A stretch of 64,000 bases of DNA from Arthrobacter sp. Marseille-P9274 (GTDB lineage Bacteria > Actinomycetota > Actinomycetes > Actinomycetales > Micrococcaceae). This document shows, piece by piece, positions 18,407 to 34,624 of the stretch. A program made the position numbers and the translations under genes. The stretch is taken from NCBI RefSeq assembly GCF_946892675.1, contig NZ_CAMPOV010000003.1, positions 310,001-374,000 on the forward strand, in the 5' to 3' direction. Below the pieces are notes generated by a model that saw only the letters and a program-made list of their open reading frames with translations, searched no databases and had not been told where the DNA came from. Within the stretch, counting starts at the first letter, position 1; every line of letters begins with the position of its first letter.

Positions 18407-18749
18407 GGTCAACCTTTCATTGAACGGTGGATGCGGGCAGCTGAATTGGACTGCAACGCGGGCTTATTCAGAAAACTGCGGGCTTCGTCACACTTGGGAA
18501 GTTTTTGGGTCCGCCCAGTCAGTGGGCGTCTCTACAGTTGCGTGCAGGTTATGAGTCCTTCGCGCTACACATGAGGCAGGCGGTGATCAGCCAGCTGCCG
18601 TAGCAAGGACGGCCAGAAGGGTATTTCCTTGGCTTAGATCGTGTCTGCGCTTCCTCTTGGACGCGAGCTCCGCCCCTCTAGCCCCGCGATCTGGCACCAC
18701 CCCGGGCCTGCGGGCTAGATGCCGACTACGTGTCCGTGAGGGTTTTGTC
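18407..18749. other. Intergenic region between the MFS and NTF2-like genes
   Basis: 343 bases with no gene. I see no strong terminator or promoter, so readthrough from the MFS gene into the NTF2-like gene is possible. Confidence 0.4.
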
Positions 18750-19964: not shown

Positions 19965-20939
19965 GGAAATTCCTTCTTTCGAGGTCGCGCCTCGCGGGTG
20001 CTAACAGACGAAATTGACTATGGGCTGCACCTGCTGCCCTGGGGAACGCAATGTTGCCGCCCCCTGTGGAGAGTGTGTTTGACCGTTATCGCCCGGCCGG
20101 AGCCTAGGGTACTTAGCTGCCCGCCCTACATCGACTGTCGGCATTGGCAGTGAGACCGGACGGAATGTCCCCACACCCCTGGCTCCTTGCAGAATCCTGA
20201 ACGGTGATCCGGGCCACAACCAAGACTATACATTTGTTTAGTTTGGGGTGTCAACGGTTTTCTTGGCCCATCGCTGAGGCTCTTGCATGCGGCCTACAGC
20301 AGCGTTTGCAGGCTGTTTAGAGGTTCGCCCCAATCATCACGAGGGCAGCTGTTCCGGTGGTCGTTACCGCGATCGCCGGCATCGGCGACGGTTTCGAAGA
20401 GGTGCGGCGTCGCAGAACAATATCTGGATGGCCGGGGAAGGTTCGCCCTGACGTTCAATCAAAACGAACCACCTATTTTTGCCCCTCGTGGACGTACACC
20501 GCCGGCCGCAGTTCGTGAACGGCCGCGCCTGCCTATCGACCAAACTCATCTCAAAGGCAGCCAAAGCTGCGTCGGCAAGGTCCAAATTTCGTTGCTGCAG
20601 AAGCTGGCAGCTATCACCCCGCCTACGACAGCCACCCCCAAACGAACGCCGCTGCGATATGCATTTACACCGCGACTATTGACGGGACAGAGGCGAATCC
20701 CGCTGAACAACGTACGGTGCGTTAGGAGTTCCGCGGTAACTTCAGATCGATTGCCTGGCCGTTCCGGGCTCCAGGCGCCGGACGGGTTTTTTTGCTTCCC
20801 GGCAGCGCCGACAGAGGCCGCGCCCCGATTGCAGGAACACTACGCTCTCGGTCGAGCAGCCGGGGCTATCGAGGCTTGCGGCCCTGCCGCACTCTCACAT
20901 CGCTCATCTGGTGCAAGGAGGACAAATGTCGATCTTCTT
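19965..20939. other. Long leader and intergenic region with one promoter; no gene seen
   Basis: Apart from the minus-strand promoter and palindrome at 20225-20254, and the roughly 255-base 5' leader it would give the MFS gene, this 975-base region shows only short overlapping frames in both directions. Antisense frames over 20283-21185 lack any family signature. It could contain remnants of an insertion. Confidence 0.5.
20225..20254 (-). promoter_or_regulatory. Promoter plus TetR-type operator, copy 1 (drives the MFS gene)
   Basis: Read on the minus strand: TTGACA (20254-20249), an 18-base spacer, then TATAGT (20230-20225). The palindrome ACTATACATTTGTTTAGT (20225-20242; arms ACTATAC/GTTTAGT with one mismatch) covers the -10 box and most of the spacer, so a bound repressor would block polymerase. 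Identical in its 18-base core to the copy at 30241. Confidence 0.75.
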
Positions 20940-21545
20940 TCACCCGGTTCTTGGCACGGAAGAGACTTCTCGAAATTCAAGATCAGCGGCAGAAGCCACC
21001 AACTTTCCCACCCGCACGACTGCAGCCCTGATGCGCGCAGGATCGCCGATGGTAAGGAATTGGAGCATGAGTCCGTCGAGAGCAGCAAAGACTGCGTTAC
21101 ACAGGTCATCGTCCGCCGCCACGCCTCGGCGGCGAAGCCCGTCGTGGACCGACGCGACATAGTTTTCGTAAAGCCGGCGCGATGATTCGCGCAGCTCGGG
21201 ATGACGTCGAGCCTCCAAGAGCATTTCAAACTGGAACAAGTGCACTTCAGGTTCTGCGGAGACCGAGGCAATCAAGGCATCGGCGTAACGCTCGTCAAGG
21301 TCGGCAAACAGCACAAGCTCGGTGTTTGCAATGGCCCGTTCGACGGCCAGTTCCATCGTGGCATTCAGCAGCGATTCCATCGAACCGAAGTGGTGCGAGA
21401 TCAGATTGTGGTTGACACCAGCCTCTCGTGCAACCGCTCGATAAGTCACCCCCCGCAGGCCCTTAGCGGCCACAATCTGCATCACTGCGGACATCAGCGC
21501 CTCACGTCCCTCTCCATAGGACGGGCGCTGGACTTCATTGCTCAT
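20940..21545 (-). CDS. TetR/AcrR-family repressor 1
   Basis: 201 residues. The N-terminal helix-turn-helix is LRGVTYRAVAREAGVNHNLISHHFGSMESLL; the rest is a helical ligand-binding and dimer domain (FQFEMLLEARRHPELRESSRRLYENYVASVHDGL). The recognition helix NHNLISHHFGS is nearly the same as in the two other TetR genes of this window, which argues that all three read the same operator. It is divergent from the moaF/aldehyde dehydrogenase operon, with the palindrome at 21619-21636 between them. The start codon directly follows a -10 box (TAAACT, 6 bases), so the mRNA is probably leaderless. Inducer unknown. Confidence 0.9.
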   Translation of the reverse strand: MSNEVQRPSYGEGREALMSAVMQIVAAKGLRGVTYRAVAREAGVNHNLISHHFGSMESLLNATMELAVERAIANTELVLFADLDERYADALIASVSAEPEVHLFQFEMLLEARRHPELRESSRRLYENYVASVHDGLRRRGVAADDDLCNAVFAALDGLMLQFLTIGDPARIRAAVVRVGKLVASAADLEFREVSSVPRTG

Positions 21546-21551
21546 ATCAAG

Positions 21552-21557
21552 AGTTTA
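21552..21557 (-). promoter_or_regulatory. -10 box of a probable leaderless TetR-1 transcript
   Basis: TAAACT on the minus strand, then six bases (CTTGAT), then the ATG. The same -10/N6/start spacing recurs at the two other TetR genes and at the Gfo/Idh/MocA gene. No ribosome-binding site is present. Confidence 0.55.
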
Positions 21558-21607
21558 CGGGTCATCCGCGCCCACCATCCGACGCCAAAAAACGTGATCG
21601 CCATGAC

Positions 21608-21636
21608 TTGACGAAGAAACTAGACAAGCGTACAGT
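21608..21636 (+). promoter_or_regulatory. Promoter plus TetR-type operator, copy 4 (drives the moaF operon)
   Basis: TTGACG (21608-21613), 17-base spacer, TACAGT (21631-21636). The palindrome ACTAGACAAGCGTACAGT (21619-21636) is the most diverged of the four, but keeps ACTA-N-AC/GT-N-CAGT and the same position over the -10. It lies 63 bases from the divergent TetR-1 start. Confidence 0.65.
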
Positions 21637-21756
21637 TTTGGAGTGATCCACCGCACAGTCGGGCATCTGCTGGAGGTTCGTTCGTGCGTAGATCGCTGGC
21701 GTGCCAGCCAGGGCGGCATAGCGGCCCGACTTCCCACCAACGACAACAACGAACGG

Positions 21757-22584
21757 ATGAACACCATGTCGAGCAGCACCAGCGCGACCGCAAGCACCGA
21801 AGCTCAGGGCTATGTTCCCCAGGACGAGTGGCCTGCGGTCACGGCCATGCTTGAAGGCTTCGGCGACCCGGCCCTTCCCGCGAGCGATAAGTTGGAGGGG
21901 ACTTCACTCGAGATCGCCTTCGACAACGGGTGGACGATCAACCATTCCTTTGACGGCGGCCAGGTGACCTGGAGCATCACCGCAGGCGCGGACACGGGCG
22001 CCACCGGCACGCACCCGTACCGGGCCGTGGAAGTACGCGACGAGATTTTCTACGTCGACTTCCTCAAGGGTGAAGGCACCAATACCCGCGACGTCACCAT
22101 GATCATCAACCGTGCCGACGGACGCGTCACGGTCGCGGATTCATCCTTTGTAAACCGCAACGGCAACGTCCGCATGCACACGGATTTCCTCTCCGGCCGG
22201 GTCGTTGGCACAGGTGAAATCGAGCCCCGCTCTGAAAGCAGCGAGCTCGTGGGCAAACGCATCTTCTACCGCTACAGCCCCACCGAACGCTACGAGCACA
22301 TCTACCTCAACTCCGGCACCTTTGTCTGGCACTGCATCCAAGGCGCGGAACAGGGCCTCGGCGACGTCGACCCCATCCGGGTCTTCGAACTCGCAGACGG
22401 CGTCGTCCTCCTGTACTGGAGCGAAACCGTCATGCCGGTCGAATCATTCGTGGTCATCGACCTGACAAATGAGCGGTCCATCGGGCGCATGTTCTGCTGG
22501 GACGGACCCACCCTGGCCCCGATGCATCTGCCCTTCGACAGCAAGTTCACGGTCCTGAACGAAACGCACTACCCCGCCGAATAA
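21757..22584 (+). CDS. MoaF-family protein of the amine catabolic regulon
   Basis: 275 residues with the two-domain lipocalin-like MoaF layout: an N-terminal half with LEIAFDNGWTINHSFDGGQVTW and YRAVEVRDEIFYVDFLKG, and a C-terminal half with GKRIFYRYSPTERYEHIYLN, FELADGVVLLYWSETVMPVE and RSIGRMFCWDGPTL. MoaF was named in Klebsiella, where it belongs to a monoamine-regulated operon; despite the name a molybdenum cofactor role is not established. It is first in an operon with an aldehyde dehydrogenase and two SDR enzymes, under the regulon palindrome. ATG 21757 (or 21766) is the likely start; the ribosome-binding site is weak. Confidence 0.85.
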   Translation: MNTMSSSTSATASTEAQGYVPQDEWPAVTAMLEGFGDPALPASDKLEGTSLEIAFDNGWTINHSFDGGQVTWSITAGADTGATGTHPYRAVEVRDEIFYVDFLKGEGTNTRDVTMIINRADGRVTVADSSFVNRNGNVRMHTDFLSGRVVGTGEIEPRSESSELVGKRIFYRYSPTERYEHIYLNSGTFVWHCIQGAEQGLGDVDPIRVFELADGVVLLYWSETVMPVESFVVIDLTNERSIGRMFCWDGPTLAPMHLPFDSKFTVLNETHYPAE

Positions 22585-22683
22585 CCGTCCCGGCCGGCCA
22601 TGGCGCTGGGCCAGCCTGTTTGCACCCCCCACACCCGATCGCCCGGCAGCTTGAGCTGCGGGTTACTCCACCGAGGAGATGAC

Positions 22684-24114
22684 ATGACCACTGAATCTGA
22701 CACTCAACCCATCACCTACGAGGAACTGCTCGCGGCGGTCCAGCCCTCGGCCGGCGGCCGGGAGATTCTGGATCCGGCGACCGGGGAGCTGGTTGGGCGG
22801 GCCCCGCAGCACATCCTTGAGGACCTCGAGTCGACGGTTGCCGCGGCCCGCGCGGCGCAGCCGGGATGGGCCGCCCTCGGACATGAGCAGCGCAGTGCTT
22901 ACATGAATCGTGCCGCGGACGCCTTCGAGGCGAACGCCGAGGCATTGGCCGTATTGCTCTCCCGCGAGCAGGGCAAGCCGCTGAACGGACCCAATGCCCG
23001 TTTCGAGGTCAGTGCCTGCGCAGCCTGGCTGCGCGCCACCGCCGGGTTCGAGCTCGAGCCCGAGGTACTGGTGGATGACGAAGGCGGCCGTGCCGAACTC
23101 CACTACCGCCCCCTGGGTGTGGTCGGTGCAATCGGGCCGTGGAACTGGCCCATGATGATCGGCGTCTGGCAGCTCGCCCCGGCGCTGCGCATGGGCAACA
23201 CCGTGGTCATGAAGCCCTCCAGCTCCACCCCGCTGTCGGTCCTTGCACTGGTTCACGTGCTCAACACCGCGCTGCCCGAAGGCGTACTGCACGCCGTCTC
23301 GGGCGACCGCACCGTGGGCAACCGGCTGGTCGAACACCCCGACGTCGCCAAGATCATGTTCACCGGGTCCACCGATGCCGGCAAGGCCATCATCCGCAAC
23401 TCCGCGGACACCGTGAAGCGCCTGACCATGGAACTCGGCGGCAACGACGCCGGCATCGTACTCCCGGACGCCGACCCGCAAGCGATCGCCCAGGACCTGT
23501 TCTGGGGTGCCTTCATCAACACCGGCCAGACCTGCGCCGCGCTCAAGCGCCTCTACGTGCACGAGGACATCTACGAAGACGTCGTCACCGCCCTGACCGA
23601 AACCGCGAAGGCCATGCCCATGGGTATCGGCCTGGACGAGAACAACGTCCTCGGCCCGCTGCAGAACAAGGCACAGTACGACGTCGTTGCGAACCTGGTC
23701 CAGGCGGCCAAAGACTCCGGCGCCCGCATCGTCCTCGGCGGCAACCCCGAGCAGGACCAGCCCGGCTACTTCTACCCGACCACCCTCGTCGCCGACATCG
23801 ACAACAACAACCCGCTGGTCGCCGAGGAGCAGTTCGGTCCCGCCCTGCCCATCGTCAGGTACTCCAGTGTGGACGAAGCCATCGGAATGGCCAACGGGCT
23901 CGAGGTCGGCCTCGGCGCCTCCGTCTGGTCCTCAGACAAGGACAAAGCCCGCGAAGTAGCCGCCCGCATCGTCGCCGGCACCGTGTGGATCAACAAGCAC
24001 GGCGCTGTGGACCCGCGCGTACCGTTCGGCGGCGCCAAGCAGTCCGGCTACGGCCTCGAGTTCGGCGTCGAAGGCCTCAAACACCTCGGACAACCCCAGG
24101 TGATCACCTACTGA
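22684..24114 (+). CDS. NAD(P)-dependent aldehyde dehydrogenase
   Basis: 476 residues, full length for the family. Motifs: GVVGAIGPWNWPMMIGVWQLAPALRMGNTVVMKPS (cofactor binding), IMFTGSTDAGKAI, ELGGNDAGIVLPDAD (general-base Glu) and INTGQTCAALKRLYV, whose Cys is the nucleophile. It oxidises an aldehyde, presumably the amine-oxidase product, to a carboxylic acid in the cytoplasm. GAGGAG precedes the ATG. It follows moaF by 99 bases. A truncated copy of its 5' end is found at 30911-31216 and a closely related gene at 51932. The closest named relatives are the phenylacetaldehyde and succinic semialdehyde dehydrogenase groups; the substrate is inferred from context. Confidence 0.9.
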   Translation: MTTESDTQPITYEELLAAVQPSAGGREILDPATGELVGRAPQHILEDLESTVAAARAAQPGWAALGHEQRSAYMNRAADAFEANAEALAVLLSREQGKPLNGPNARFEVSACAAWLRATAGFELEPEVLVDDEGGRAELHYRPLGVVGAIGPWNWPMMIGVWQLAPALRMGNTVVMKPSSSTPLSVLALVHVLNTALPEGVLHAVSGDRTVGNRLVEHPDVAKIMFTGSTDAGKAIIRNSADTVKRLTMELGGNDAGIVLPDADPQAIAQDLFWGAFINTGQTCAALKRLYVHEDIYEDVVTALTETAKAMPMGIGLDENNVLGPLQNKAQYDVVANLVQAAKDSGARIVLGGNPEQDQPGYFYPTTLVADIDNNNPLVAEEQFGPALPIVRYSSVDEAIGMANGLEVGLGASVWSSDKDKAREVAARIVAGTVWINKHGAVDPRVPFGGAKQSGYGLEFGVEGLKHLGQPQVITY

Positions 24115-24158
24115 CCAGGCAGCGGGCTCGGCCCGGGGGCCGCCCGCATCTCGAATGC

Positions 24159-24193
24159 CGGGTGGATGTCCGACGAACCCGGACATCCACCCG
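24159..24193 (+). terminator. Perfect 14-bp stem-loop between aldehyde dehydrogenase and SDR genes
   Basis: CGGGTGGATGTCCG (24159-24172) pairs with CGGACATCCACCCG (24180-24193) around a 7-base loop. There is no U-tract, and the next gene starts 25 bases later, so it may be an attenuating or mRNA-processing element within the operon rather than a full stop. Confidence 0.5.
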
Positions 24194-24217
24194 CCGCTGC
24201 GGTAAATGGAGAGACCG

Positions 24218-24982
24218 ATGGATATGCAATTGCGTGACCGCGTCGTCCTGGTGACAGGGGGCGCGTCCGGCATTGGCCGTGGCTGTGTCGAAGTTCTGGC
24301 CGAAGAAGGTGCCAGCATCCTGATCGTTGATCGGAACCCCGAAGGCGGAGCCCTGGCAAGACAGCTCCGGGGAGCAGGCCATCGGGTCGTATTTGTGCGG
24401 GCCGACCTCTCGGATGAACTCGAGGTGCAGTCGGCCGTCCAAACCGCGGATGACCAGTTTGGCCGGCTGGATTCGGTCATCGCGTGTGCCGGAATTTCCG
24501 GACCGGTAGGACGGGCCGCGGCAGAGGTTTCAGTGGCCGATTGGGACCGTGTGATGGCAGTGAACGTGCGGGGCAACTTTCTGGTTGCCAAACACAGCGT
24601 AGCCCTCCTGAGCAAAAGCAAGACGTCATCGGTGGTCTTTCTGGGATCGGATTCGGCGCTGGTCGCGTTCGAGGGAATGAGCCCGTACTGCACCTCGAAG
24701 GGCGCGGTTCTTATGCTCACCAAATCACTGACCGTCGACTACCCGCAGGTCCGCTTCAACTGCCTGTGCCCGGGCATTGTGGACACTCCAATGTCCAGGG
24801 CAGATCTAGGCCGGGACGAAGGTTTTGCCGGGGCCGGCCTTCCCGTGATGGAACCGCGCCAGGTTGCACGCCATGCCGTGTTTCTTGCCTCTCCGATCAG
24901 TGCCCCCATCAACGGGACCGCACTCGTTGCGGATTTCGGCTTCATGGCCCGTTCCGCGCTCCCGGCACTGAACTTCAGCTGA
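24218..24982 (+). CDS. Short-chain dehydrogenase/reductase (SDR) 1
   Basis: 254 residues. Classical SDR elements: VVLVTGGASGIGRGCVEVLAEEG (cofactor), ILIVDRNPEG with Asp at the end of strand 2 (predicts NAD preference), CAGIS in the NNAG position, a catalytic Ser in FLGSDSA, and SPYCTSKGAVLMLTKSL with catalytic Tyr and Lys. CPGIVDTPMS is the usual post-active-site motif. ATG 24218 is chosen because GGAGAG lies 4-9 bases upstream. It belongs to the moaF operon and is followed by a second SDR gene, so an alcohol, ketone or diol intermediate is likely in the pathway. Confidence 0.88.
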   Translation: MDMQLRDRVVLVTGGASGIGRGCVEVLAEEGASILIVDRNPEGGALARQLRGAGHRVVFVRADLSDELEVQSAVQTADDQFGRLDSVIACAGISGPVGRAAAEVSVADWDRVMAVNVRGNFLVAKHSVALLSKSKTSSVVFLGSDSALVAFEGMSPYCTSKGAVLMLTKSLTVDYPQVRFNCLCPGIVDTPMSRADLGRDEGFAGAGLPVMEPRQVARHAVFLASPISAPINGTALVADFGFMARSALPALNFS

Positions 24983-25039
24983 CAACACTCCCCTACCGCT
25001 GGCCGCATCGCAGATCCGCCCGCACCTCAAGGAGGCAGA

Positions 25040-25876
25040 ATGACCAAGAACCCCGTAGCCATCGTTACCGGTGGAGGAACAGGTATCGGCGCCGCGACGG
25101 CCGCCGTCCTCCGGGCGCAGGAATGGGAAGTAGTTGTTTGTGGACGGCGGCCGGAAACCCTTGAACACGTTGCCCGCACCACCGGCGCTACCCCCTTGGT
25201 CGTTGACGCGGCCTCCGAGAAAGACGTGGACCGGTTGGTCGAAACGACTATGGCGGGCTTCGGATCAATTAACGGCCTGGTGCTGAACGCGGGCATTGTC
25301 AGGCCCGGAACAGTTTCCGAACTGGCTACCGACGACTGGAACGCCATGGTCAGCACCAACCTGACCGGCCCCTTCCTCCTGGCCAAGGCAGCCCTGCCGA
25401 ACCTGATAAGTGCTGGCGGATCGATTGTAGGTGTCGCTTCAGCCGCCGCGCTCAGAGCCAGCGCCGGCATCCCCGGATACAACGCGACCAAGGCCGGGCT
25501 CACGATGCTGATGCAGTCGATTGCCGTGGACTACGGACACCGCGGAATCCGTGCCAACGCCGTCTGCCCGGGATGGACCCGGACCGAAATGGCCGACATG
25601 GAGATGGATGAATACGGTGAAGAGCTGGGGCTGGAGCGGGAGGAGGCCTACTCAGTGGCCACCTCGTTCGTGCCAAGCCGACGGCCGGCAAAAGCGTCGG
25701 AAGTCGGCAGCCTCATTGCATGGCTGCTCTCGGGGCAGGCCTCGTATGTCAATGGGGCCGTCATCCCGGTCGATGGCGGGATGACGGCCGTCGATCCCGG
25801 TTCGCTCGCGTTGGATCCCCGGGTCACGATTTCCGGCTCCCGGCCTGCCCCTGTTCCCGTCAATCAGAGCCCGTGA
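25040..25876 (+). CDS. Short-chain dehydrogenase/reductase (SDR) 2
   Basis: 278 residues. VAIVTGGGTGIGAATAAVLRAQ (cofactor), VVCGRRPETL (basic residues after strand 2, suggesting NADP), LNAGIV, Ser in VGVASAAALRASAG, and Tyr/Lys in GYNATKAGLTMLMQSIAVDYG. CPGWTRTEMADMEMDEYGEE and VNGAVIPVDGGMTAVDP complete the fold, with a roughly 25-residue extra tail. CAAGGAGG precedes the ATG. It is clearly paralogous to the SDR at 29242 (same YNATK/YAASK region, same long MEMDEYGEE or ALMTVADRD insert, same GGxxAVD end), consistent with duplication of a gene module. Confidence 0.88.
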   Translation: MTKNPVAIVTGGGTGIGAATAAVLRAQEWEVVVCGRRPETLEHVARTTGATPLVVDAASEKDVDRLVETTMAGFGSINGLVLNAGIVRPGTVSELATDDWNAMVSTNLTGPFLLAKAALPNLISAGGSIVGVASAAALRASAGIPGYNATKAGLTMLMQSIAVDYGHRGIRANAVCPGWTRTEMADMEMDEYGEELGLEREEAYSVATSFVPSRRPAKASEVGSLIAWLLSGQASYVNGAVIPVDGGMTAVDPGSLALDPRVTISGSRPAPVPVNQSP

Positions 25877-26003
25877 ACAGGGGCTAACCATTAGCCTTCC
25901 CTGTCTCTCCAGGGCCTGACGCATAGTCCCTACTCGCGGGGTCCGTTCCCGCACAGCGTACCTGCTGACACATACACAAACCTTTTTGTTGAAAGGGCCT
26001 CTC

Positions 26004-27464
26004 ATGGCTGGTTCCATCGATCACGCGGACGCCGCTCCCGCTTTGCATCGCACGCTGCGTTGGCAGGATGCCTTTGCTCTCGCCATGGCCGTCTCGGGCG
26101 GTCTTTTCGTTTCCTTCGGTCCGACGATGGCCGCGATCGGCGCCCTGTCGGCCATGTTCGTCTGGGCGCTGGCAGCGGCCATCGGCTGGGCGCAGAACCA
26201 CCTGTTCGCGGAGATGGCCTCGATGTTCCCCGATAAGCCGGGAGGGGTTCCGGTCTACGCGCACGAGGCGTGGAAGGGTCGGTTCGCGCCGGCCGGCGCC
26301 CTGGCCACGTTCGGTTACTGGTTCGGCTGGTCCGCGGTCATCTCGATCGTCAGCCTTACCGCCGGGGCGATCATCCAGGCACGCTGGCTTCCCGAGGCGA
26401 CGTGGGCGCTGGATCTGGGCTTTTTGCAGGTGGGCGTGGCGCAGCTGATCGGCATCGGGTTCATCCTCGCCCTCATGGTGCCGAATCTGTTTGGTGCGCA
26501 GCCTGCGGCCTGGGTCAACAAGATCTTCGGGGCCCTGCTGCTGATCCCGCTGCTGACCTTCGTGGTGGCCCCGCTGGTCAGCGGGCAGTGGGAGGCATCC
26601 AACCTCACCTGGGGCCTCGGGCAGCCGGGCGCCGATCACTGGGGCGGCTGGCAGGACGCCGCCGTCTGGCTCTACCTCGTCGGCTGGACCGCCTACGGCA
26701 CCGAAATGTGTGCCGCGTTCACCCCCGAGTACCGCAGCAACAAGGACGCCCGCCGGGCCCTGTCCACCTCCGGTGGCTACACCTTCATGATGTTCGCCCT
26801 CGTCCCGATCGGCATCGGCGGGCTCATCTCCCAGGCCGACGCCGCCGCCGACCCGACCGCCGTCTTCGTCAACGGCTTCGCCTCGGTGCTGCCGGCGGGC
26901 TTCGCCGGAGACGCCGCGCTCGTCATCACCATCGGCGCGCTGCTGATGGGCGTCAACGCCAGCATGGCCGACGGCTCCCGCGCCCTTTACGGCGCCGCCA
27001 TTGACGGCCTGGTCCCGCGCCAGCTGGAAACCCTCAACCGCCACCAGGTTCCGGCCCGGGCGATCATCGCCGCCGTGATCATGAACATCCTTCTCGTGCT
27101 CTTCGTCTCCAACCCGATCGGCATCCTCGTCGCGGCCAATATCGGCTATCTCCTCGCCATCCTGCTCGCCGTCTCCGGCTTCCTGCTCCTGCGCAGAGAC
27201 CGGCCGAACGCGCCGCGTACGTTCAAGCTCGGTGCCTGGGCCGTCCCCCTCGCCGTGGTGCTCACCGTCTACGGAGCCGCCGTCCTCGTCGTCGGCGCCT
27301 TCTCCTCCGAACTCTCCGGCTACGGCGGCCCGGTCGAACTGGGAATCGGCGTCGGCATCCTCCTGCTCTCCCTGATCCTCTTCGTCATTCGCCGTAGATT
27401 CCAGGACCGCCTGCCCCTACTCCGCGAACCCTGGACTCCGGCACCCTCTGCCGACGAAACGTAG
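26004..27464 (+). CDS. APC-superfamily amine/amino-acid permease, copy A
   Basis: 486 residues with about 12 spans: LRWQDAFALAMAVSGGLFVSFGPTMAAIG (helix 1), WAQNHLFAEMASMFPDKPGGVPVYAHEAWK (intracellular loop 1, APC-type), and a C-terminal membrane half ending in FVIRRRFQDRLPLLREP. It fits the ethanolamine/amine branch of APC better than classical amino-acid permeases. GAAAGGG precedes the ATG. It closes the moaF operon. Residues 12-476 are encoded by DNA that is repeated, as far as I can see without change, in inverted orientation at 33053-34448; only the first dozen and last ten residues differ. Predicted role: uptake of the amine substrate. Confidence 0.9.
   Translation: MAGSIDHADAAPALHRTLRWQDAFALAMAVSGGLFVSFGPTMAAIGALSAMFVWALAAAIGWAQNHLFAEMASMFPDKPGGVPVYAHEAWKGRFAPAGALATFGYWFGWSAVISIVSLTAGAIIQARWLPEATWALDLGFLQVGVAQLIGIGFILALMVPNLFGAQPAAWVNKIFGALLLIPLLTFVVAPLVSGQWEASNLTWGLGQPGADHWGGWQDAAVWLYLVGWTAYGTEMCAAFTPEYRSNKDARRALSTSGGYTFMMFALVPIGIGGLISQADAAADPTAVFVNGFASVLPAGFAGDAALVITIGALLMGVNASMADGSRALYGAAIDGLVPRQLETLNRHQVPARAIIAAVIMNILLVLFVSNPIGILVAANIGYLLAILLAVSGFLLLRRDRPNAPRTFKLGAWAVPLAVVLTVYGAAVLVVGAFSSELSGYGGPVELGIGVGILLLSLILFVIRRRFQDRLPLLREPWTPAPSADET
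26036..27431 (+). repeat. 1396-bp inverted repeat, left arm (inside permease A)
   Basis: Starts at TCCCGCTTTGCATCG and ends at CGCGAACCC. The right arm is 33053-34448 on the opposite strand. Every translation I compared in several frames, including non-coding frames, agrees exactly, so the DNA is identical or nearly so. The spacing between arms is 5.6 kb. Confidence 0.9.
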
Positions 27465-27507
27465 GACGAAGGGACCGACCCCGGCATTTCACCCCGGGAA
27501 CTTCCCC

Positions 27508-27538
27508 GGAGGGGGCCGCATCGAAAGCGGTCCCCTCC
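27508..27538. terminator. Bidirectional terminator between permease A and the amidohydrolase
   Basis: GGAGGGGGCCGC (27508-27519) pairs with GCGGTCCCCTCC (27527-27538) with one G-T wobble and a 7-base loop. It lies between two convergent genes, where a shared terminator is expected. There is no long T-run on either side. Confidence 0.55.
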
Positions 27539-27612
27539 CTTCAGCTTGTCGCACCCCTTCCCCTGGTCTGACCAGCATCGTCGCAGGCATCGGCTGAGTG
27601 GGGGCGTGAGGC

Positions 27613-29178
27613 TCAGTTCGGCTGGTACACCGTCCGTCCCTCAAAGACGGTACGGAGGACCTCGGTGCCCCCGATCTCCTGAACGGGGACCTCGAAGAGG
27701 TTGCGGTCGAGGACGATGAAGTCGGCTGTCTTCCCCGCCTCAAGACTGCCCTGGTGTCCGGCCCGGTTGACGGCCTTGGCCCCGGCCAGCGTGACTGCAT
27801 GGATGGCGCGCGGGAGGTCGATGGACTCAACGCCGTGCTCCAGCATGCCCTGCAGCCCGGGAAAAAGGTTGGGGTTTTCAGTGATGATCCAGTCCGACCC
27901 GACCGTCATCGTGGCACCGTGTCTTAAGACGGAGTTGAACTTGAAGCCGGATTGCAGACCGTATTCGGGGATATGCCATAGCGCGGGAGACATCTCGGCC
28001 GTCACGTTCAGCTCGGGCAGCCGGTCATAGTCCTGATCGCTGATGAATCCGGCGTGCGCCACTTCGTGCGCTGGACCGTCCGACCCGTTCCGGCTGCGCA
28101 CTTCGGCAATCGCATCGAGGGCGGTGCGCACTGCCCCCTCACCCGCGCAGTGAATCTTGACCGTGAGACCCTGAGCATCGAAGTCGGTCACAGCACGAAC
28201 AAGCTCGTCGCGCGGCACCAGAATCTTCGACGCGTCCACGGTGTTCTGTTCGGTGAGATTTGCCTGCGTCATGTGGGGAGGCAGCGGGGCTCCGTCGAGC
28301 CAGATCTTGATAAATCCGGGATCGACATGGGGAGTGCGCCACACGTCCCGGTCCTCGATGAGCCGGTCGAGTTGTTCGCGGCTGGCGCCGCCGAAGCCCT
28401 CTTCCCGCCAAACGAGGTGTGCCGCCACGCGAAGCGCCATGGAGCCGTCCTCGTCCAACGTCCGCAGTGCCCTGAGTGTCTGAGGGTTCGCCGATGCTTC
28501 CTGGACGGAAGTGATCCCGTATTTGTGGCACATGGAGACAGCCCATGCCACGGCGTCTACGGCGCTTCGTTCAGGGTAGTCCGGAATTGCGCGCAGGACG
28601 GGCCAGCGGCCCTGCTCGACCATTTCGCCTGTGAGGCGTCCCGTGGCATCACGGACGAGCCGGCCGCCCGCCGAGTCTTCGATCGACTCGTCGACGCCCG
28701 CCAACTGCAGTGCGCGGGAGTTGGCCAGGCCGTGGTGAATTGAGTAGTCGTACAGGAAAACAGGCTGGTCGGGGAACGCCTCATCGAGGAAGTCCCTGCT
28801 GGGAGGTTCCTTGCCGAATGAGTCCGGAAAATATTCACCACCGATGAGCCACTCGTTACCCTCACTGTCGATGGGGCCCTGGCAGTGGCAGGACCGGAGC
28901 TCCTCGATAATCCGATGGGCGTCGGCAGCGGAGGTGAGGCGGGCCTCGAACTTAAATTTGAGCCCGCTGAAGAGCAGGTGCAGGTGGGCGTCATGGATCC
29001 CCGGCATGGCCATTCGCCCTTCCAGGTCCACAAATTCGGTGTCCCGGGGGGCGATTGAGCGCACCTCGTCCTCGCTGCCGACGGCCCTGATCCGTCCCTC
29101 CTCCACCAGCAGGGCCTCGGCCCACGGCTGGTCAGGGTTGACGGTGTAGAACTTTCCATTGATGAACGCTGTTGTCAC
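27613..29178 (-). CDS. Amidohydrolase-superfamily enzyme (YtcJ-like exo-amidase)
   Basis: About 521 residues. The family signature is an N-terminal beta-sandwich piece (FINGKFYTVNPDQPWAEALLVEEGRIRAVG), the metal motif MPGIHDAHLHLLFSG (HxH), VKIHCAGEGAVR with a metal-site His, VAHAGFISD, and the late Asp in MTVGSDWIITENPN. The C-terminal part returns to the sandwich (GSLEAGKTADFIVLDRNLFEVP). These enzymes hydrolyse N-acyl or cyclic amides in a metal-dependent way. GTG 29178 follows GGAAGGA by 6 bases; ATG 29193 is the alternative. It lies downstream of the SDR at 29242 in the palindrome-controlled operon, so it may release an amine or acid from an amide. Confidence 0.88.
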   Translation of the reverse strand: MTTAFINGKFYTVNPDQPWAEALLVEEGRIRAVGSEDEVRSIAPRDTEFVDLEGRMAMPGIHDAHLHLLFSGLKFKFEARLTSAADAHRIIEELRSCHCQGPIDSEGNEWLIGGEYFPDSFGKEPPSRDFLDEAFPDQPVFLYDYSIHHGLANSRALQLAGVDESIEDSAGGRLVRDATGRLTGEMVEQGRWPVLRAIPDYPERSAVDAVAWAVSMCHKYGITSVQEASANPQTLRALRTLDEDGSMALRVAAHLVWREEGFGGASREQLDRLIEDRDVWRTPHVDPGFIKIWLDGAPLPPHMTQANLTEQNTVDASKILVPRDELVRAVTDFDAQGLTVKIHCAGEGAVRTALDAIAEVRSRNGSDGPAHEVAHAGFISDQDYDRLPELNVTAEMSPALWHIPEYGLQSGFKFNSVLRHGATMTVGSDWIITENPNLFPGLQGMLEHGVESIDLPRAIHAVTLAGAKAVNRAGHQGSLEAGKTADFIVLDRNLFEVPVQEIGGTEVLRTVFEGRTVYQPN

Positions 29179-29241
29179 CGATGTTCCTTCCATATCAGTC
29201 GCTGCGGCCGGGACGTGGTTCGACCGCAACGGGCTGCATTG

Positions 29242-30042
29242 CTAGTTGTCCTCATAGACCAGAGCCGCCACGTCGACCGCGGAAGCCCCACCGTCAATAG
29301 GAATGATGGCCCCCGTGAGATACGACGCTCCCTCGGAGAGGAGGAAGGCGATTACGGAAGCGATCTCGGCGGCGGCGCCCGCTCGCCGCAAAGGGACATG
29401 CCGAGTGGCGAGGTCGTACGCGGCCTCAAGTGGGACATCGTCCCGGTCTGCCACAGTCATCAGAGCAGAGGCGGACATCTCAGTCTTGACCAGCCCGGGG
29501 CAGACGAGGTTCGCGCGGACGCCTACCTTGCCGTACTCCACCGCGACGGACTGCAACATCAGGCCCAGCCCTGCCTTCGACGCGGCGTAGCCGCTCAAGA
29601 ACGAACTGGCCCTCAGTGCGGCCAGCGACGCCACGCCGACGATGGAACCCCCGCCGTCCGGGAAGTGCGGGATGACTGTCCGGGCCAGCCGTGCCGCCGC
29701 GACGAGGTTCGTCTCCAGCATGTCCCGCCACAGCGCGTCAGTGGTATCGGAGAAGCGCCGGGCATGCGCAATCGCAGCGTTAAGCACAACGCCATCGATC
29801 CGGCCGAACCGCTCGAGGACAGCGCCGACGACCTCATCAGCACTTGATTCCCTGCTCATATCAACCGCAATCGGATGCGCTCCGATGTCCGCGGCAACCC
29901 TTTCCAAGACCGACGCCCGGCGGCCGCAGATAGCCACCTCCCATCCGCTGTCGGACAAGAGGCCGGCGGTCGCCGCGCCGATGCCCGTGCCGCCACCGGT
30001 CACAATCGCAACCGGCCAGCCGCTGTTTTCCTCATTGCTCAC
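29242..30042 (-). CDS. Short-chain dehydrogenase/reductase (SDR) 3, paralogue of SDR 2
   Basis: 266 residues. VAIVTGGGTGIGAATAGLLSDSG, AICGRRASVL, LNAAIA, VGVASLAALRASSFLSGYAASKAGLGLMLQSVAVEYG and CPGLVKTEMSASALMTVADRD give the complete classical SDR set with Ser, Tyr and Lys in place. It shares order and local wording with the SDR at 25040. GTG 30042 is preferred because GGAAGG lies 8 bases upstream; a longer frame to 30087 has no such site. It is the first gene of the minus-strand operon led by the palindrome at 30241, divergent from TetR-2. Confidence 0.87.
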   Translation of the reverse strand: MSNEENSGWPVAIVTGGGTGIGAATAGLLSDSGWEVAICGRRASVLERVAADIGAHPIAVDMSRESSADEVVGAVLERFGRIDGVVLNAAIAHARRFSDTTDALWRDMLETNLVAAARLARTVIPHFPDGGGSIVGVASLAALRASSFLSGYAASKAGLGLMLQSVAVEYGKVGVRANLVCPGLVKTEMSASALMTVADRDDVPLEAAYDLATRHVPLRRAGAAAEIASVIAFLLSEGASYLTGAIIPIDGGASAVDVAALVYEDN

Positions 30043-30240
30043 GTTTTCGACCTTCCGATGCTGCTGGGGCGCAGCGCGCCGCAGCATGAATGTGTGAGAG
30101 GTGTAGTCCCGAAGCGCGGATCCAGATCTCCCTCAACCTGGACGTACCCGGTAGGTGAGGTGGGCTGACGATGCGCGCGTGGCAACACAGTGCGGGTCCG
30201 GAACTGGCAGCGAAACTTTGTGGGCTCCGCCACACCCGTG

Positions 30241-30270
30241 ACTATACATTTGTTTAGTTTGGCGTGTCAA
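30241..30270 (-). promoter_or_regulatory. Promoter plus TetR-type operator, copy 2 (drives SDR 3 and amidohydrolase)
   Basis: On the minus strand: TTGACA (30270-30265), 18-base spacer, TATAGT (30246-30241). The palindrome ACTATACATTTGTTTAGT occupies 30241-30258, identical to copy 1 including flanking GTTTGG and GTGTCAACGG. It lies between divergent SDR 3 and TetR-2. Confidence 0.78.
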
Positions 30271-30310
30271 CGGCGTTTCTGTCCTTGGTAGAGCCGGTTA
30301 TGCTCGGACC

Positions 30311-30910
30311 ATGAGCCACCCCGGGACCCAAGCCAGCAAGCCCTCGAGCCCCGCACACGGGGAGGGACGCGCAGCTCTTCTCGCGGCCGTTGTTTCGGTC
30401 GTGGCACGAAAGGGGATGAGGGGATTCACATTCCGTGCGGTAGCCGCGGAAGCCGGGGTAAATCACACGCTCATCAACCACCACTTCGGGTCAATGCAGG
30501 CATTGCTTGTGGCCACGACGGAATGGGTCGTGGAGCGGTCCATTGAGGAAACGGGGCTCGCCTTGTTCGCAGACTCGAGTGAGGAGTTCGCCGAAACTCT
30601 TATCTCGTCCGCCGCCAGGAACCCGGAACTTCAGATGTTCCAACTTGAAATCATTATCGAATCCCGGCGGCAGCCCGAACTGCGGGTAGCCGTCAGCCGG
30701 CTCTATCAGGCATACGTAGATTCGGTTCGCGACGCCTTGCAGAGGAGGGGTTTGTCCGGCGATATGGAGGAGGCGAGGGTTATATTCGCGGCCCTGAACG
30801 GGCTGGTGCTACAGCTCCTCACCGTCGTGGATCCCGAAACCATCCGCTCTGCACTCGTGCACGTCGGAAGCATTCTCGGCACGACCGATGCCGTTCAGGA
30901 CGGAACCTAA
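30311..30910 (+). CDS. TetR/AcrR-family repressor 2
   Basis: 199 residues. Helix-turn-helix MRGFTFRAVAAEAGVNHTLINHHFGSMQALL, then a helical regulatory domain (FQLEIIIESRRQPELRVAVSRLYQAYVDSVRDAL) alignable over its whole length with TetR-1 and TetR-3. It is divergent from SDR 3 with the palindrome between. The ATG follows a -10-like TATGCT (30299-30304) by six bases and lacks a ribosome-binding site, so the transcript is probably leaderless. Immediately after its stop codon the sequence turns into the antisense of a truncated aldehyde dehydrogenase, so this is a rearrangement junction and the extreme C-terminus may be new. Confidence 0.9.
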   Translation: MSHPGTQASKPSSPAHGEGRAALLAAVVSVVARKGMRGFTFRAVAAEAGVNHTLINHHFGSMQALLVATTEWVVERSIEETGLALFADSSEEFAETLISSAARNPELQMFQLEIIIESRRQPELRVAVSRLYQAYVDSVRDALQRRGLSGDMEEARVIFAALNGLVLQLLTVVDPETIRSALVHVGSILGTTDAVQDGT

Positions 30911-31216
30911 GCGGCTTGCCCTGCTCGCGGGAGAGCAACACTGCCAATGCCTCGGCGTTCGCCTCGACCGCGTCCGCGGCACGATACATGTAAGCGCTGC
31001 ACTACTCATGTCCGAGGGCGGCCCATCCCGGCTGGGCCACCCTCGGGCCGCGGTTACGGCAGATTCGAGATCCGCTACCGTGTATTCGGGTGCGCGGCCC
31101 ACGAGTTCACCCGTGGCCGGGTCCAGGATGTCGCGGCCGCCGTCGACCGGCTGGATCGCGGCAAGCAGGTCAGCCGCGGTGGCGTGGCCAGTTTCTAATG
31201 TGGTTTCGGTGCTCAT
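30911..31216 (-). pseudogene. Truncated aldehyde dehydrogenase (5' end only)
   Basis: The first 60 codons (AADLLAAIQPVDGGRDILDP, then TGELVGRAPEYTVADLESAV) match the start of the aldehyde dehydrogenase at 22684. A frameshift near 31035 follows; the rest is readable in other frames as PGWAALGHE, a stop, then SAYMYRAADAVEANAEALAV and LLSREQGKPL, ending abruptly at the TetR-2 stop codon. So only about 105 codons survive of 476. It is the last element of the cupin/amine oxidase operon, which therefore once carried its own aldehyde dehydrogenase. Confidence 0.88.
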
Positions 31217-31241
31217 GTTCTTCTCTTATGTTCTTGGCGTT

Positions 31242-32582
31242 TTATGCGGTGGGTGCCGGAACGGTTTGGGGCGCGCTGGTCACCGCGACGGAGTGGGCGA
31301 GCTGGTCTCCGACGGCCCGTGCGGCGTCGAGTCCGCTTTCGATGGCTCCGTCGATGAAGCCGCCCCAGCCGTTGGCAAAGTCTGATCCGGCGAGATGGAT
31401 GCGACCTTCGGGGCGTTGGAGCTCGGCCAGGGAGTGGGTGAGGTAGCCGGTGTAGTGCATGGGCCAGGTAGAGAGCGAGTATTCGTCGTCCACCCAGTTG
31501 TGGCCTGCGACCTCGAGGACTTCCAGGCCGGGCACGAGTGTGTCAAGGATTGCCTGGGCGGCTTCGGGGTCGTCGACGTCGATGGCGGAGGCGTCGGGGC
31601 CGAAGCAAACGAGTGTGGTGGCGTCCTCGTCGATGTATTCGGCCTGCACGAAGTTCAGCGGGGCGTTCTCGGGTCCGAGGGCCACGAACCGTTCCTGCCG
31701 TCCCTTGACCTTGATCCACAGTTTCGCGCCGCGCCCGGCCTGCCCCCTGGCTGCCGCCTCACGCTTGGCGGGCGAGAGTGCCGGCTGGATGTCGATGTCG
31801 TTAAGCACGCTCAGCGGCAGGGCGAGGATCAGTTCCCGGGCGGCATACTGCTCGCCGGAGGAAGTCAGCACGGTGACGCCGGCGTCGTCCTGGCTGATGG
31901 AGACGACGGTCTGGTTCAGCCGCACGTCGGCGGTGGAATCGGCAAGGATGGCTTCGGCGAGGCGGCGGGTGCCGCCGTCGATTTTGAAGCTGGCGCAGGC
32001 CTCGAACATGGTTTGCCATGACCCGGTGGCGACGGCGCACCAGCGCAGGGCCTGGGTGTAGGCAGCCTGGTCCAGCTTGCCGTTGAAATTGAGCGTCCAG
32101 AAGGAGCGCAGGAGCTGGCGCTGGTCTTCGGGCAGGTCCAGCCGGTCGATGGCGTTGGAGAGGGTGATGCCGTCGATCTTCGCGACCTCGGGGTTTGCCA
32201 GCGGAGACCACGGCAGCGGGAAGTACCGGCGCGCGTCGGCCAGCAGGGCCTGGTTGGGGGCGTCCAGCAGTTCCAGCAGCGTGTCGGCGTGGCCTTCGTG
32301 CCGTTGGCCGTCCGCGACCCAGTAGGCCTTGGTGAACTCGGGGCCGGGGACGGGGTCGATGGCGTAGCGTCCCATTTCTGCCCACACGTAGGGCTGTGTC
32401 CAGTGCACCCATGTGCCGCCAAGCTCGAGGTTACGGCCCATTCGCTCGTCGAGGTGCGTGCGGCCGGCGATCCGGTCCCTTGCCTCGAGGAGGGTGGTTT
32501 TGTGGCCGCGGCGGGAAAGCTCGCGGGCAGCGGTCAGGCCGGCGAAGCCTGCGCCGACGATGATGACGTGAGTATTTTTCAT
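31242..32582 (-). CDS. Flavin-dependent monoamine oxidase
   Basis: 446 residues. VIIVGAGFAGLTAARELSRRGHKTTLLEARDRIAGRTH is the FAD dinucleotide-binding motif of the amine oxidase family (the usual GGR reads AGR). LELGGTWVHWTQPYVWAEM is the region near the active site, and the C-terminal GRIHLAGSDFANGWGGFIDGAIESGLDAA is the second FAD-contact motif. Relatives include putrescine and tyramine oxidases of actinobacteria. It would oxidise a primary or secondary amine to an imine/aldehyde plus H2O2. It follows the cupin gene by 14 bases; a truncated aldehyde dehydrogenase follows it. Confidence 0.9.
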   Translation of the reverse strand: MKNTHVIIVGAGFAGLTAARELSRRGHKTTLLEARDRIAGRTHLDERMGRNLELGGTWVHWTQPYVWAEMGRYAIDPVPGPEFTKAYWVADGQRHEGHADTLLELLDAPNQALLADARRYFPLPWSPLANPEVAKIDGITLSNAIDRLDLPEDQRQLLRSFWTLNFNGKLDQAAYTQALRWCAVATGSWQTMFEACASFKIDGGTRRLAEAILADSTADVRLNQTVVSISQDDAGVTVLTSSGEQYAARELILALPLSVLNDIDIQPALSPAKREAAARGQAGRGAKLWIKVKGRQERFVALGPENAPLNFVQAEYIDEDATTLVCFGPDASAIDVDDPEAAQAILDTLVPGLEVLEVAGHNWVDDEYSLSTWPMHYTGYLTHSLAELQRPEGRIHLAGSDFANGWGGFIDGAIESGLDAARAVGDQLAHSVAVTSAPQTVPAPTA

Positions 32583-32596
32583 AGTGTTGGTCCCGG

Positions 32597-32929
32597 TTAG
32601 CTGTAGACGAAGAATTCGATGGTGGGTTCGACGACGGTCCACCGGGTCATGGCGCCCGCAGAGAAGGAGGCCATGGAGCCGGCGGTCAGGTCGAAGGCGT
32701 CGCCGTCCTTGACCTCGATGCGCAGATGCCCGGAGACGATGTAGATGGTCTCGTCTTCGTCGATGGGCAGGTCGAAGGGTTCCGGGGCCTCCTCGGGGGT
32801 CACTTTCCAGATGCCGGAGGACAGTTTTTCGTTGCCGTTGTCGCCGGGGCGGCGCAGCCACTGCACGGTGCCGAGCTCGAACGGTTCAAAGGCGGTGTCG
32901 TCGTGCCGGGCATGGAAGACCTGGGACAT
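32597..32929 (-). CDS. Cupin-domain protein (DUF861-like small cupin)
   Basis: 110 residues forming one RmlC-type beta barrel: SGIWKVTPEEAPEPFDLPIDEDETIYIVSGHLRIEVKDGDAFDLTAGSMASFSAGAMTRWTVVEPTIEFFVYS. The motif-1 His positions are replaced by Asp/Glu (PIDEDETIYIVSG), so a metal site of the classical kind is doubtful. These small cupins often accompany aldehyde- and amine-metabolising enzymes. It sits between permease B and the monoamine oxidase on the same strand with short gaps, so it is co-transcribed with them from the promoter at 34567. Its role is unknown. Confidence 0.82.
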   Translation of the reverse strand: MSQVFHARHDDTAFEPFELGTVQWLRRPGDNGNEKLSSGIWKVTPEEAPEPFDLPIDEDETIYIVSGHLRIEVKDGDAFDLTAGSMASFSAGAMTRWTVVEPTIEFFVYS

Positions 32930-32998
32930 GGTGTTGCTCCTTGGGTTAAGTGTCGTGGGCAGGTTCTTGAACAGGTGGGTGCAGAAGGTGCGGTGGAA

Positions 32999-34480
32999 CT
33001 AGGCGGGTCCGGCAGTCGAGGGCCCCGCCGTCGAGTCCGCCTCCGGAGTGCGGGGTTCGCGGAGTAGGGGCAGGCGGTCCTGGAATCTACGGCGAATGAC
33101 GAAGAGGATCAGGGAGAGCAGGAGGATGCCGACGCCGATTCCCAGTTCGACCGGGCCGCCGTAGCCGGAGAGTTCGGAGGAGAAGGCGCCGACGACGAGG
33201 ACGGCGGCTCCGTAGACGGTGAGCACCACGGCGAGGGGGACGGCCCAGGCACCGAGCTTGAACGTACGCGGCGCGTTCGGCCGGTCTCTGCGCAGGAGCA
33301 GGAAGCCGGAGACGGCGAGCAGGATGGCGAGGAGATAGCCGATATTGGCCGCGACGAGGATGCCGATCGGGTTGGAGACGAAGAGCACGAGAAGGATGTT
33401 CATGATCACGGCGGCGATGATCGCCCGGGCCGGAACCTGGTGGCGGTTGAGGGTTTCCAGCTGGCGCGGGACCAGGCCGTCAATGGCGGCGCCGTAAAGG
33501 GCGCGGGAGCCGTCGGCCATGCTGGCGTTGACGCCCATCAGCAGCGCGCCGATGGTGATGACGAGCGCGGCGTCTCCGGCGAAGCCCGCCGGCAGCACCG
33601 AGGCGAAGCCGTTGACGAAGACGGCGGTCGGGTCGGCGGCGGCGTCGGCCTGGGAGATGAGCCCGCCGATGCCGATCGGGACGAGGGCGAACATCATGAA
33701 GGTGTAGCCACCGGAGGTGGACAGGGCCCGGCGGGCGTCCTTGTTGCTGCGGTACTCGGGGGTGAACGCGGCACACATTTCGGTGCCGTAGGCGGTCCAG
33801 CCGACGAGGTAGAGCCAGACGGCGGCGTCCTGCCAGCCGCCCCAGTGATCGGCGCCCGGCTGCCCGAGGCCCCAGGTGAGGTTGGATGCCTCCCACTGCC
33901 CGCTGACCAGCGGGGCCACCACGAAGGTCAGCAGCGGGATCAGCAGCAGGGCCCCGAAGATCTTGTTGACCCAGGCCGCAGGCTGCGCACCAAACAGATT
34001 CGGCACCATGAGGGCGAGGATGAACCCGATGCCGATCAGCTGCGCCACGCCCACCTGCAAAAAGCCCAGATCCAGCGCCCACGTCGCCTCGGGAAGCCAG
34101 CGTGCCTGGATGATCGCCCCGGCGGTAAGGCTGACGATCGAGATGACCGCGGACCAGCCGAACCAGTAACCGAACGTGGCCAGGGCGCCGGCCGGCGCGA
34201 ACCGACCCTTCCACGCCTCGTGCGCGTAGACCGGAACCCCTCCCGGCTTATCGGGGAACATCGAGGCCATCTCCGCGAACAGGTGGTTCTGCGCCCAGCC
34301 GATGGCCGCTGCCAGCGCCCAGACGAACATGGCCGACAGGGCGCCGATCGCGGCCATCGTCGGACCGAAGGAAACGAAAAGACCGCCCGAGACGGCCATG
34401 GCGAGAGCAAAGGCATCCTGCCAACGCAGCGTGCGATGCAAAGCGGGAACGGTGTCTGTGTGCTCGAGTGAACCAGCCAT
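32999..34480 (-). CDS. APC-superfamily amine/amino-acid permease, copy B
   Basis: 493 residues, identical to permease A from about residue 12 to 476. The N-terminus (MAGSLEHTDTVPAL) and the C-terminal tail (RTPEADSTAGPSTAGPA) are its own. AAAGG lies 7 bases before ATG 34480; a second ATG is directly upstream. It leads the operon permease B, cupin, monoamine oxidase, truncated aldehyde dehydrogenase, under the palindrome promoter at 34567 and divergent from TetR-3. Exact identity with copy A over 1396 bp while both flanks differ indicates recent gene conversion or duplication. Confidence 0.9.
   Translation of the reverse strand: MAGSLEHTDTVPALHRTLRWQDAFALAMAVSGGLFVSFGPTMAAIGALSAMFVWALAAAIGWAQNHLFAEMASMFPDKPGGVPVYAHEAWKGRFAPAGALATFGYWFGWSAVISIVSLTAGAIIQARWLPEATWALDLGFLQVGVAQLIGIGFILALMVPNLFGAQPAAWVNKIFGALLLIPLLTFVVAPLVSGQWEASNLTWGLGQPGADHWGGWQDAAVWLYLVGWTAYGTEMCAAFTPEYRSNKDARRALSTSGGYTFMMFALVPIGIGGLISQADAAADPTAVFVNGFASVLPAGFAGDAALVITIGALLMGVNASMADGSRALYGAAIDGLVPRQLETLNRHQVPARAIIAAVIMNILLVLFVSNPIGILVAANIGYLLAILLAVSGFLLLRRDRPNAPRTFKLGAWAVPLAVVLTVYGAAVLVVGAFSSELSGYGGPVELGIGVGILLLSLILFVIRRRFQDRLPLLREPRTPEADSTAGPSTAGPA
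33053..34448 (-). repeat. 1396-bp inverted repeat, right arm (inside permease B)
   Basis: Inverted partner of 26036-27431. The 5.6 kb between the arms holds the amidohydrolase, SDR 3, TetR-2, aldehyde dehydrogenase remnant, monoamine oxidase and cupin. Recombination between the arms would invert this segment without destroying either permease frame. Confidence 0.9.
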
Positions 34481-34566
34481 CATGCGGCCTTTCAGCAGGA
34501 TTGGGACTAAGCGGGGGTGAATGGAGCCCCACAACGGGAGCGACGTGCGCCGCGTCACAAACAACA

Positions 34567-34595
34567 ACTATGCATTTGCTTAGTTTTACTGTCAA
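34567..34595 (-). promoter_or_regulatory. Promoter plus TetR-type operator, copy 3 (drives permease B operon)
   Basis: On the minus strand: TTGACA (34595-34590), 17-base spacer, CATAGT (34572-34567). Palindrome ACTATGCATTTGCTTAGT at 34567-34584: both arms changed together (AC to GC, GT to GC), so symmetry is preserved, which supports a protein-binding site. It lies between divergent permease B and TetR-3. Confidence 0.75.
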
Positions 34596-34624
34596 GGGGC
34601 GTTTTTCCGGTCTAGACTCGGGTT

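Follow-up and report, generated by a model that had tools for sequence, protein, structure and literature searches.

Do the three TetR-type regulators encoded in a putative amine-catabolism cluster of Arthrobacter sp. Marseille-P9274 all read the same operators, or have they divided the operators among themselves? The stretch analyzed here (the window) comprises 64,000 nucleotides of this genome (contig NZ_CAMPOV010000003.1, positions 310,001 to 374,000) and contains four promoters that share an 18-bp operator, together with three TetR genes (Table 1). This soil bacterium probably controls the breakdown of amines by means of the three related repressors. We consider it likely, judging from the sequences, that they govern a local amine regulon in which TetR1 and TetR2 act on three operators with A:T at base pair 6/13 (sites 1–3) and TetR3 acts on the one operator with G:C at that pair (site 4).

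Sites 1 and 3 consist of the same letters (ACTATACATTTGTTTAGT), site 2 reads ACTAGACAAGCGTACAGT, and site 4 (ACTATGCATTTGCTTAGT) differs from sites 1 and 3 solely at positions 6 and 13. The original prediction had placed an 18-bp palindrome on the -10 box of four promoters; its coordinates were exact, and all four sites do lie on the -10 of sigma-70-like promoters with a TTGAC-type -35. The shared operator also held, with the qualification that the dyads are imperfect (paired positions 7/9, 5/9, 7/9 and 7/9 at sites 1 to 4). At every site the -35 hexamer (TTGACA or TTGACG) precedes the operator by 5 or 6 nt, the final six operator bases are the -10 hexamer, and the spacer is 17 or 18 nt. A consensus promoter scan of both strands of positions 18500-36000 of the window (17.5 kb) returned four promoter-like sites, which were exactly sites 1–4. 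This number is unremarkable by itself, as shuffles gave an expectation of 2.6, and it is the coincidence with sites 1–4 that is remarkable.

The prediction of three TetR genes with near-identical recognition helices, divergent from three of the four promoters, was borne out. TetR1 diverges from site 2, TetR2 from site 3 and TetR3 from site 4, and no TetR gene adjoins site 1. All three have the Pfam domains TetR_N (expectation values (E) of 1.8e-10, 6.4e-11 and 8.2e-14, each above the gathering score) and TetR_C_31, and TetR1 shares 51% identity with TetR2 and 44% with TetR3. A search of the genome with TetR1 found these three TetRs of the subfamily, the next best match being only 27% identical (E 1.5e-6). 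The cut-off of the BetI model TIGR03384 (201.3 bits) was not reached by the TetRs, which scored 45.6, 37.9 and 49.1 bits, and among the matches listed no NCBIfam equivalog model attained its own cut-off. The predicted model of TetR1 (mean predicted local distance difference test score, pLDDT, 83.5) has an all-helical, two-domain TetR fold, with which Foldseek identified TetR chains at E down to 1.5e-6, the nearest being EbrR (3hta) and the Rhodococcus proteins 2np5 and 2g3b. TetR family repressors of this kind resemble those studied here in their Pfam domains, in the fold modeled for TetR1, and in having a divergent gene with a palindromic operator on the target promoter. EbrR differs in being titled a multidrug-binding protein, whereas the TetRs of the window adjoin amine oxidase, MoaF and permease genes. 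Helix 3 of the TetR1 model spans residues 47–53 and, therefore, residues 45-46 directly precede the recognition helix.

Relatives of these repressors were found in 33/395 genomes of the family (profile of the three TetRs, E 1e-30), 9/396 genomes of the order (TetR2 query, E 1e-25) and 12/394 genomes of the class (TetR profile); the window's own genome is present in each sample, and some other genomes are common to samples. Upstream DNA was read for 64 TetR genes, which encode Asn45-His46 (Asn-His, 13 genes), Asn46 preceded by any residue (x-Asn, 36) or Thr-His or Ser-His (15, the outgroup). The 49 Asn-His and x-Asn genes include the window's three. Loci L026, L029 and L030 were taken as copies of G486, G454 and G750 and excluded from the counts; only L026 and L028-L032 were used from one set of 80 loci, and one of four plasmid records. 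An operator with at most one mismatch was identified no more than 200 bp upstream of 47 of the 49 genes, compared with 0/49 for each of 40 random half-site permutations, some of which were repeats. On the side of the operator away from the TetR gene, TTGAC was present 4-7 nt past the operator in 39/48 cases, compared with 31 of 11,100 places picked from the fetched loci at random and with no matching for composition. These upstream sites and the placement of TTGAC indicate that an operator on the divergent promoter is a conserved trait of the subfamily. The conservation is dyad-symmetric and continues through the spacer. The search pattern ACTNNRCANNYGYNNAGT, in which only A or G is permitted at position 6, gave seven strand-matches in the window, representing the four sites, versus 0.02 expected. 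Its exact matches in the whole genome (4,783,143 bases) were sites 1–4 and nowhere else, and the reversed-pattern control gave 0.

The two forms of the operator were compared between repressor classes using a pattern neutral at position 6. The base pair 6/13 was A:T for all 13 Asn-His proteins and G:C for all 34 x-Asn proteins that had a site with at most one mismatch; when the best site of each x-Asn protein was taken, G:C was found in 36/36, one of these sites having two mismatches and one three. Collapsing the 49 proteins at 70% identity left 17 clusters with zero exceptions to this rule. Among the outgroup loci, 9/15 had sites of the form CTAnCCAnnTGGnTAG (at most one mismatch), with C:G at 6/13, and A, G or T at the same pair was found in 0/15; the C:G pattern was picked post hoc and then set against the three alternative letters. 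Across residues 8-199, only residues 33, 40 and 46 separate the Asn-His from the x-Asn proteins without overlap, and of these only residue 46 adjoins the recognition helix. Residue 45 is not decisive when residue 46 is Asn, because two Asp-Asn proteins and one Thr-Asn protein keep G:C. Residue 47 is Gly in 15/15 outgroup proteins and in no others. In addition, all 10 proteins (the window's included) that group with TetR3 on a tree of the sensor domain have the G:C form, which supports the earlier claim that the symmetric change at 34567 has been under selection.

A precedent for such a contact is provided by MtrR. In solved operator complexes of this TetR-family repressor (PMC8053128), direct base contacts are made by T43, R44 and G45. 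R44 recognises the guanine of a YpG step, which occupies position 13 of the 18-bp consensus. That position, four bases from the dyad, is the place that varies in the operators studied here. By our own alignment of the HHF/WHF helix ends, for which the MtrR letters came partly from the residue names in the same source, R44 would correspond to residue 46. The two systems would thus be alike in that position 13 of an 18-bp consensus, a guanine in MtrR, is read by the residue aligned to 46, and they differ in the residue itself (Arg versus His or Asn here), in the remaining half-site sequence and in the efflux genes that MtrR targets.

Several results weigh against a division of the operators by residue 46 or against the discriminating power of the search pattern. 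Once common descent is allowed for, the correlation of residue and base carries hardly any formal weight, because residue 46 and base 6 need just two changes each on a tree from which the DNA-binding domain was left out (residues 45-46 jointly need six), and the number of independent residue/base pairs on that tree is one on well-supported branches and two on all branches. The support of the Asn-His group was 94/86 on this tree and 99/98 on the whole-protein tree. Residues 33 and 40 separate the classes as residue 46 does, and no operator was found at 6/15 outgroup loci. When one mismatch was allowed in the search pattern, the genome had 19+21 matches and the control 19+22, so that the relaxed scan was at the level of the control. 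The exact pattern was also matched in 230/395 family genomes, with similar control counts in many of them, and consequently it is not diagnostic alone outside its setting. Finally, four of the 10 family genomes that have at least two of these repressors (G486, G454 and two others, all of one genus code, g11) carry two x-Asn repressors, both with G:C operators, so that separation at 6/13 is not needed everywhere. Both classes occur in the remaining six genomes, among them that of the window, and G932 and G947 from the class sample each have a pair of Thr-His repressors, which indicates that separation is common and not universal. The residue/base relationship is good as a predicted contact, owing to the structural precedent of MtrR, and statistically weak.

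The sequences themselves show the sites and their geometry, the conservation of these sites next to TetR genes and the correlation of residue with base, and three other explanations of these features were weighed. The operator class may have been inherited with the clade and be set by other residues (33, 40 or 45-47 jointly) or by DNA shape, residue 46 being a mere marker. The separation of the classes at residues 33 and 40, the Gly47 confined to the outgroup and the two changes on the tree are all consistent with this. However, it is only residue 46 among the three that adjoins the recognition helix and aligns with the base reader of MtrR, and G:C is kept by the Asp-Asn and Thr-Asn proteins; we therefore regard this explanation as rather unlikely. 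The original prediction described a single regulon whose three repressors cross-bind, in which case TetR1, TetR2 and TetR3 would bind all four sites similarly, and the G:C of site 4 would be neutral, with its symmetry kept by the dimer. Such a regulon would suit the match of sites 3 and 4 at all positions except 6 and 13, the near-identical recognition helices and the four genomes that keep two repressors of the G:C class. We nevertheless find it improbable, as the A:T or G:C form tracks the repressor class in 49/49 proteins (two of these with sites at 2 or 3 mismatches), and the changed residue is the one that aligns with the reader of this base in MtrR. What endured of the single regulon is the shared operator on the -10 and a local TetR regulon, and what did not is a common reading by all three repressors: cross-binding of TetR1 and TetR2 is plausible, based on their identical residues 45-46 and their shared base pair, and TetR3 is predicted to be separate.

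A further possibility is that the TetRs activate, or use other sites, the shared box being no more than a promoter motif. Given its overlap with the -10, its conservation could be partly promoter sequence, but that conservation is symmetric about the dyad and extends through the spacer, the exact sites are absent elsewhere in the genome and a position over the -10 is typical of a repressor; we give this possibility very little credence.

We return to the assignment of sites 1–3 to TetR1 and TetR2 and of site 4 to TetR3, in which the predicted owners follow from the symmetric change tracking residue 46 across relatives. Binding, repression, operon structure, the inducer and the degree of insulation are what we infer from these sequences, and the following scheme would account for them. 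The three paralogous repressors would hold off the amine-catabolism regulon through an operator that spans the -10 and the greater part of the spacer: a bound dimer would exclude RNA polymerase until an amine or a breakdown product released the repressor. TetR1 and TetR2 (Asn45-His46) would read A:T at 6/13 and thereby control the MFS gene, the moaF-aldehyde dehydrogenase-short-chain dehydrogenase (SDR)-SDR-permease unit and the SDR-amidohydrolase unit, and TetR3 (Asn45-Asn46) would read G:C and control the permease-cupin-amine oxidase unit. Whether residues 45-46, perhaps with residue 47, constitute a three-state natural code (Asn-His for A:T, x-Asn for G:C, Thr-His for C:G), by which one amino-acid change and a symmetric two-base change split duplicated repressors into circuits, we judge to be an evenly balanced question.

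A catabolic regulon under TetR control is of a known type, and what is unusual here is how clean the natural specificity switch appears to be. Helbl and Hillen are said to have selected, in 1998, laboratory variants of TetR for the tet operators 4C and 6C, with changes reportedly within the recognition helix. Those variants likewise recognise an operator changed at one position, and they differ in being laboratory-selected, whereas the paralogues here are natural. Protein-DNA contacts have been predicted from residue/base correlation for MerR (PMC5045206) and IclR (PMC8222616), which is the same approach applied to other families; the MerR paper cites previous energy-based work that included LacI and TetR. 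Simulation has been used to study how a duplicated repressor and its operator drift apart with control retained (Poelwijk 2006, PMC1464816), and here extant genomes hold both classes side by side. The specificity step is testable by single exchanges because the predicted symmetric pair is all that distinguishes two of the operators in the cluster. If the assignment is true, it would yield TetR/operator pairs that are predicted to be orthogonal. The subfamily, present in 33/395 family genomes, marks an amine-type catabolic regulon. Literature searches, in which subscription journals were poorly covered, found nothing on an amine-type regulon with this TetR subfamily, MoaF being absent among the matches listed, and, for TetR specificity and paralogue/operator co-variation (titles and abstract openings), nothing on this subfamily among the matches listed.

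Table 1. Coordinates in the window of the operators, the TetR genes and the candidate target genes.
Feature	Positions	Strand	Remarks
Operator site 1, A:T class	20225..20242	-	on -10 of promoter directed to MFS gene; -35 TTGACA 20249-20254
Operator site 2, A:T class	21619..21636	+	on -10 of moaF operon promoter; -35 TTGACG 21608-21613
Operator site 3, A:T class	30241..30258	-	on -10 of SDR-amidohydrolase promoter; -35 TTGACA 30265-30270
Operator site 4, G:C class	34567..34584	-	on -10 of permease-cupin-amine oxidase promoter; -35 TTGACA 34590-34595
TetR1	20940..21545	-	helix VNHNLISHHF, Asn45-His46; TetR_N + TetR_C_31
TetR2	30311..30910	+	helix VNHTLINHHF, Asn-His
TetR3	34625..35203	+	helix VNNTLISHHF, Asn-Asn
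MFS transporter	18750..19964	-	first gene past site 1
Small protein	17981..18412	-	past MFS gene
MoaF	21757..22584	+	MoaF PF10703 and MoaF_C PF17409 domains; start codon by eye
Aldehyde dehydrogenase	22684..24114	+	moaF operon
SDR a	24206..24982	+	33% identical to SDR b
SDR b	25040..25876	+	
Permease, moaF-operon copy	25986..27464	+	97.7% protein identity to copy at 32999
SDR c	29242..30087	-	first gene past site 3
Amidohydro_3 amidohydrolase	27613..29229	-	
Permease, AA_permease_2	32999..34483	-	first gene past site 4
Small cupin	32597..32929	-	name from the original prediction
Flavin amine oxidase	31242..32582	-	

The genes past the operators suggest that the substrate and inducer are likely a small amine. 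Both domains of the MoaF/monoamine operon protein, PF10703 and PF17409, are present in the window's MoaF, and induction by monoamines is a known feature of operons of that type. The amine oxidase has its closest matches among bacterial amine oxidases, in a group to which (S)-6-hydroxynicotine oxidase belongs (E 1.6e-70). Permease, cupin and amine oxidase genes were found together in 10/41 fetched stretches (L168-L175, L181 and L206), each with a G:C operator, and moaF was present in 10/10 fetched stretches with A:T operators and also in others with G:C. As amine oxidase and cupin genes also lie behind A:T operators (L178, L179, L184 and L185), the operator base follows the repressor and not the target gene. 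By eye, several relatives have a gene for an APC-type permease between the operator and moaF. A link to ephedrine degradation, known from Arthrobacter, was considered and rejected: it was not named among the PDB relatives listed at E 1e-30 for SDR b and SDR c (14 and 2, respectively), and no tie between it and a TetR regulon was found among the literature matches listed.

Membership of the MFS gene in the regulon by way of site 1, as originally proposed, is the weakest link. This gene is the least sure of the targets because its start is 260 nt from site 1 and matches were found in just 5/14 of the relatives searched, at 40-43% identity. The 45-bp stretch 20213-20257, containing the site 1 promoter-operator, is a 91% copy of 30229-30273 around site 3, and the MFS gene possibly captured a promoter of the site 3 type in this way; a search for a TetR remnant beside site 1 found none. 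The small protein encoded past the MFS gene is, by eye, what we take to be a SnoaL-like protein, and its homologue in L169 adjoins the amidohydrolase gene, a link between the units of sites 1 and 3. At E 1e-100, the amidohydrolase was matched in 1/14 genomes.

Traces of rearrangement were also observed in the cluster. The two permease genes form an inverted pair (25987-27441 and 33043-34497) that is 98.97% identical over 1455 bp and lies in operons of different repressor classes, as might result from recent copying or gene conversion. At 30910-31171, a remnant of the 5' end of an aldehyde dehydrogenase gene stops at the final base of the gene for TetR2. Insertion may have brought the TetR2-SDR-amidohydrolase module to this place, since L168, L170 and L172 have an aldehyde dehydrogenase gene beyond the amine oxidase gene. 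On a plasmid of Arthrobacter sp. YC-RL1 (NZ_CP013298.1, L222 9511-12588), a TetR1-type gene (73% identical), a permease gene and a MoaF gene lie between two recombinase genes, and this segment is possibly a mobile unit. Outside the cluster, another aldehyde dehydrogenase gene of the window (51929-53266) is 70% identical to the one at 22684, and the overlapping frames 16669-17277 and 17208-17828 seemingly represent, by eye, one protein of the metallo-beta-lactamase fold split by a frameshift.

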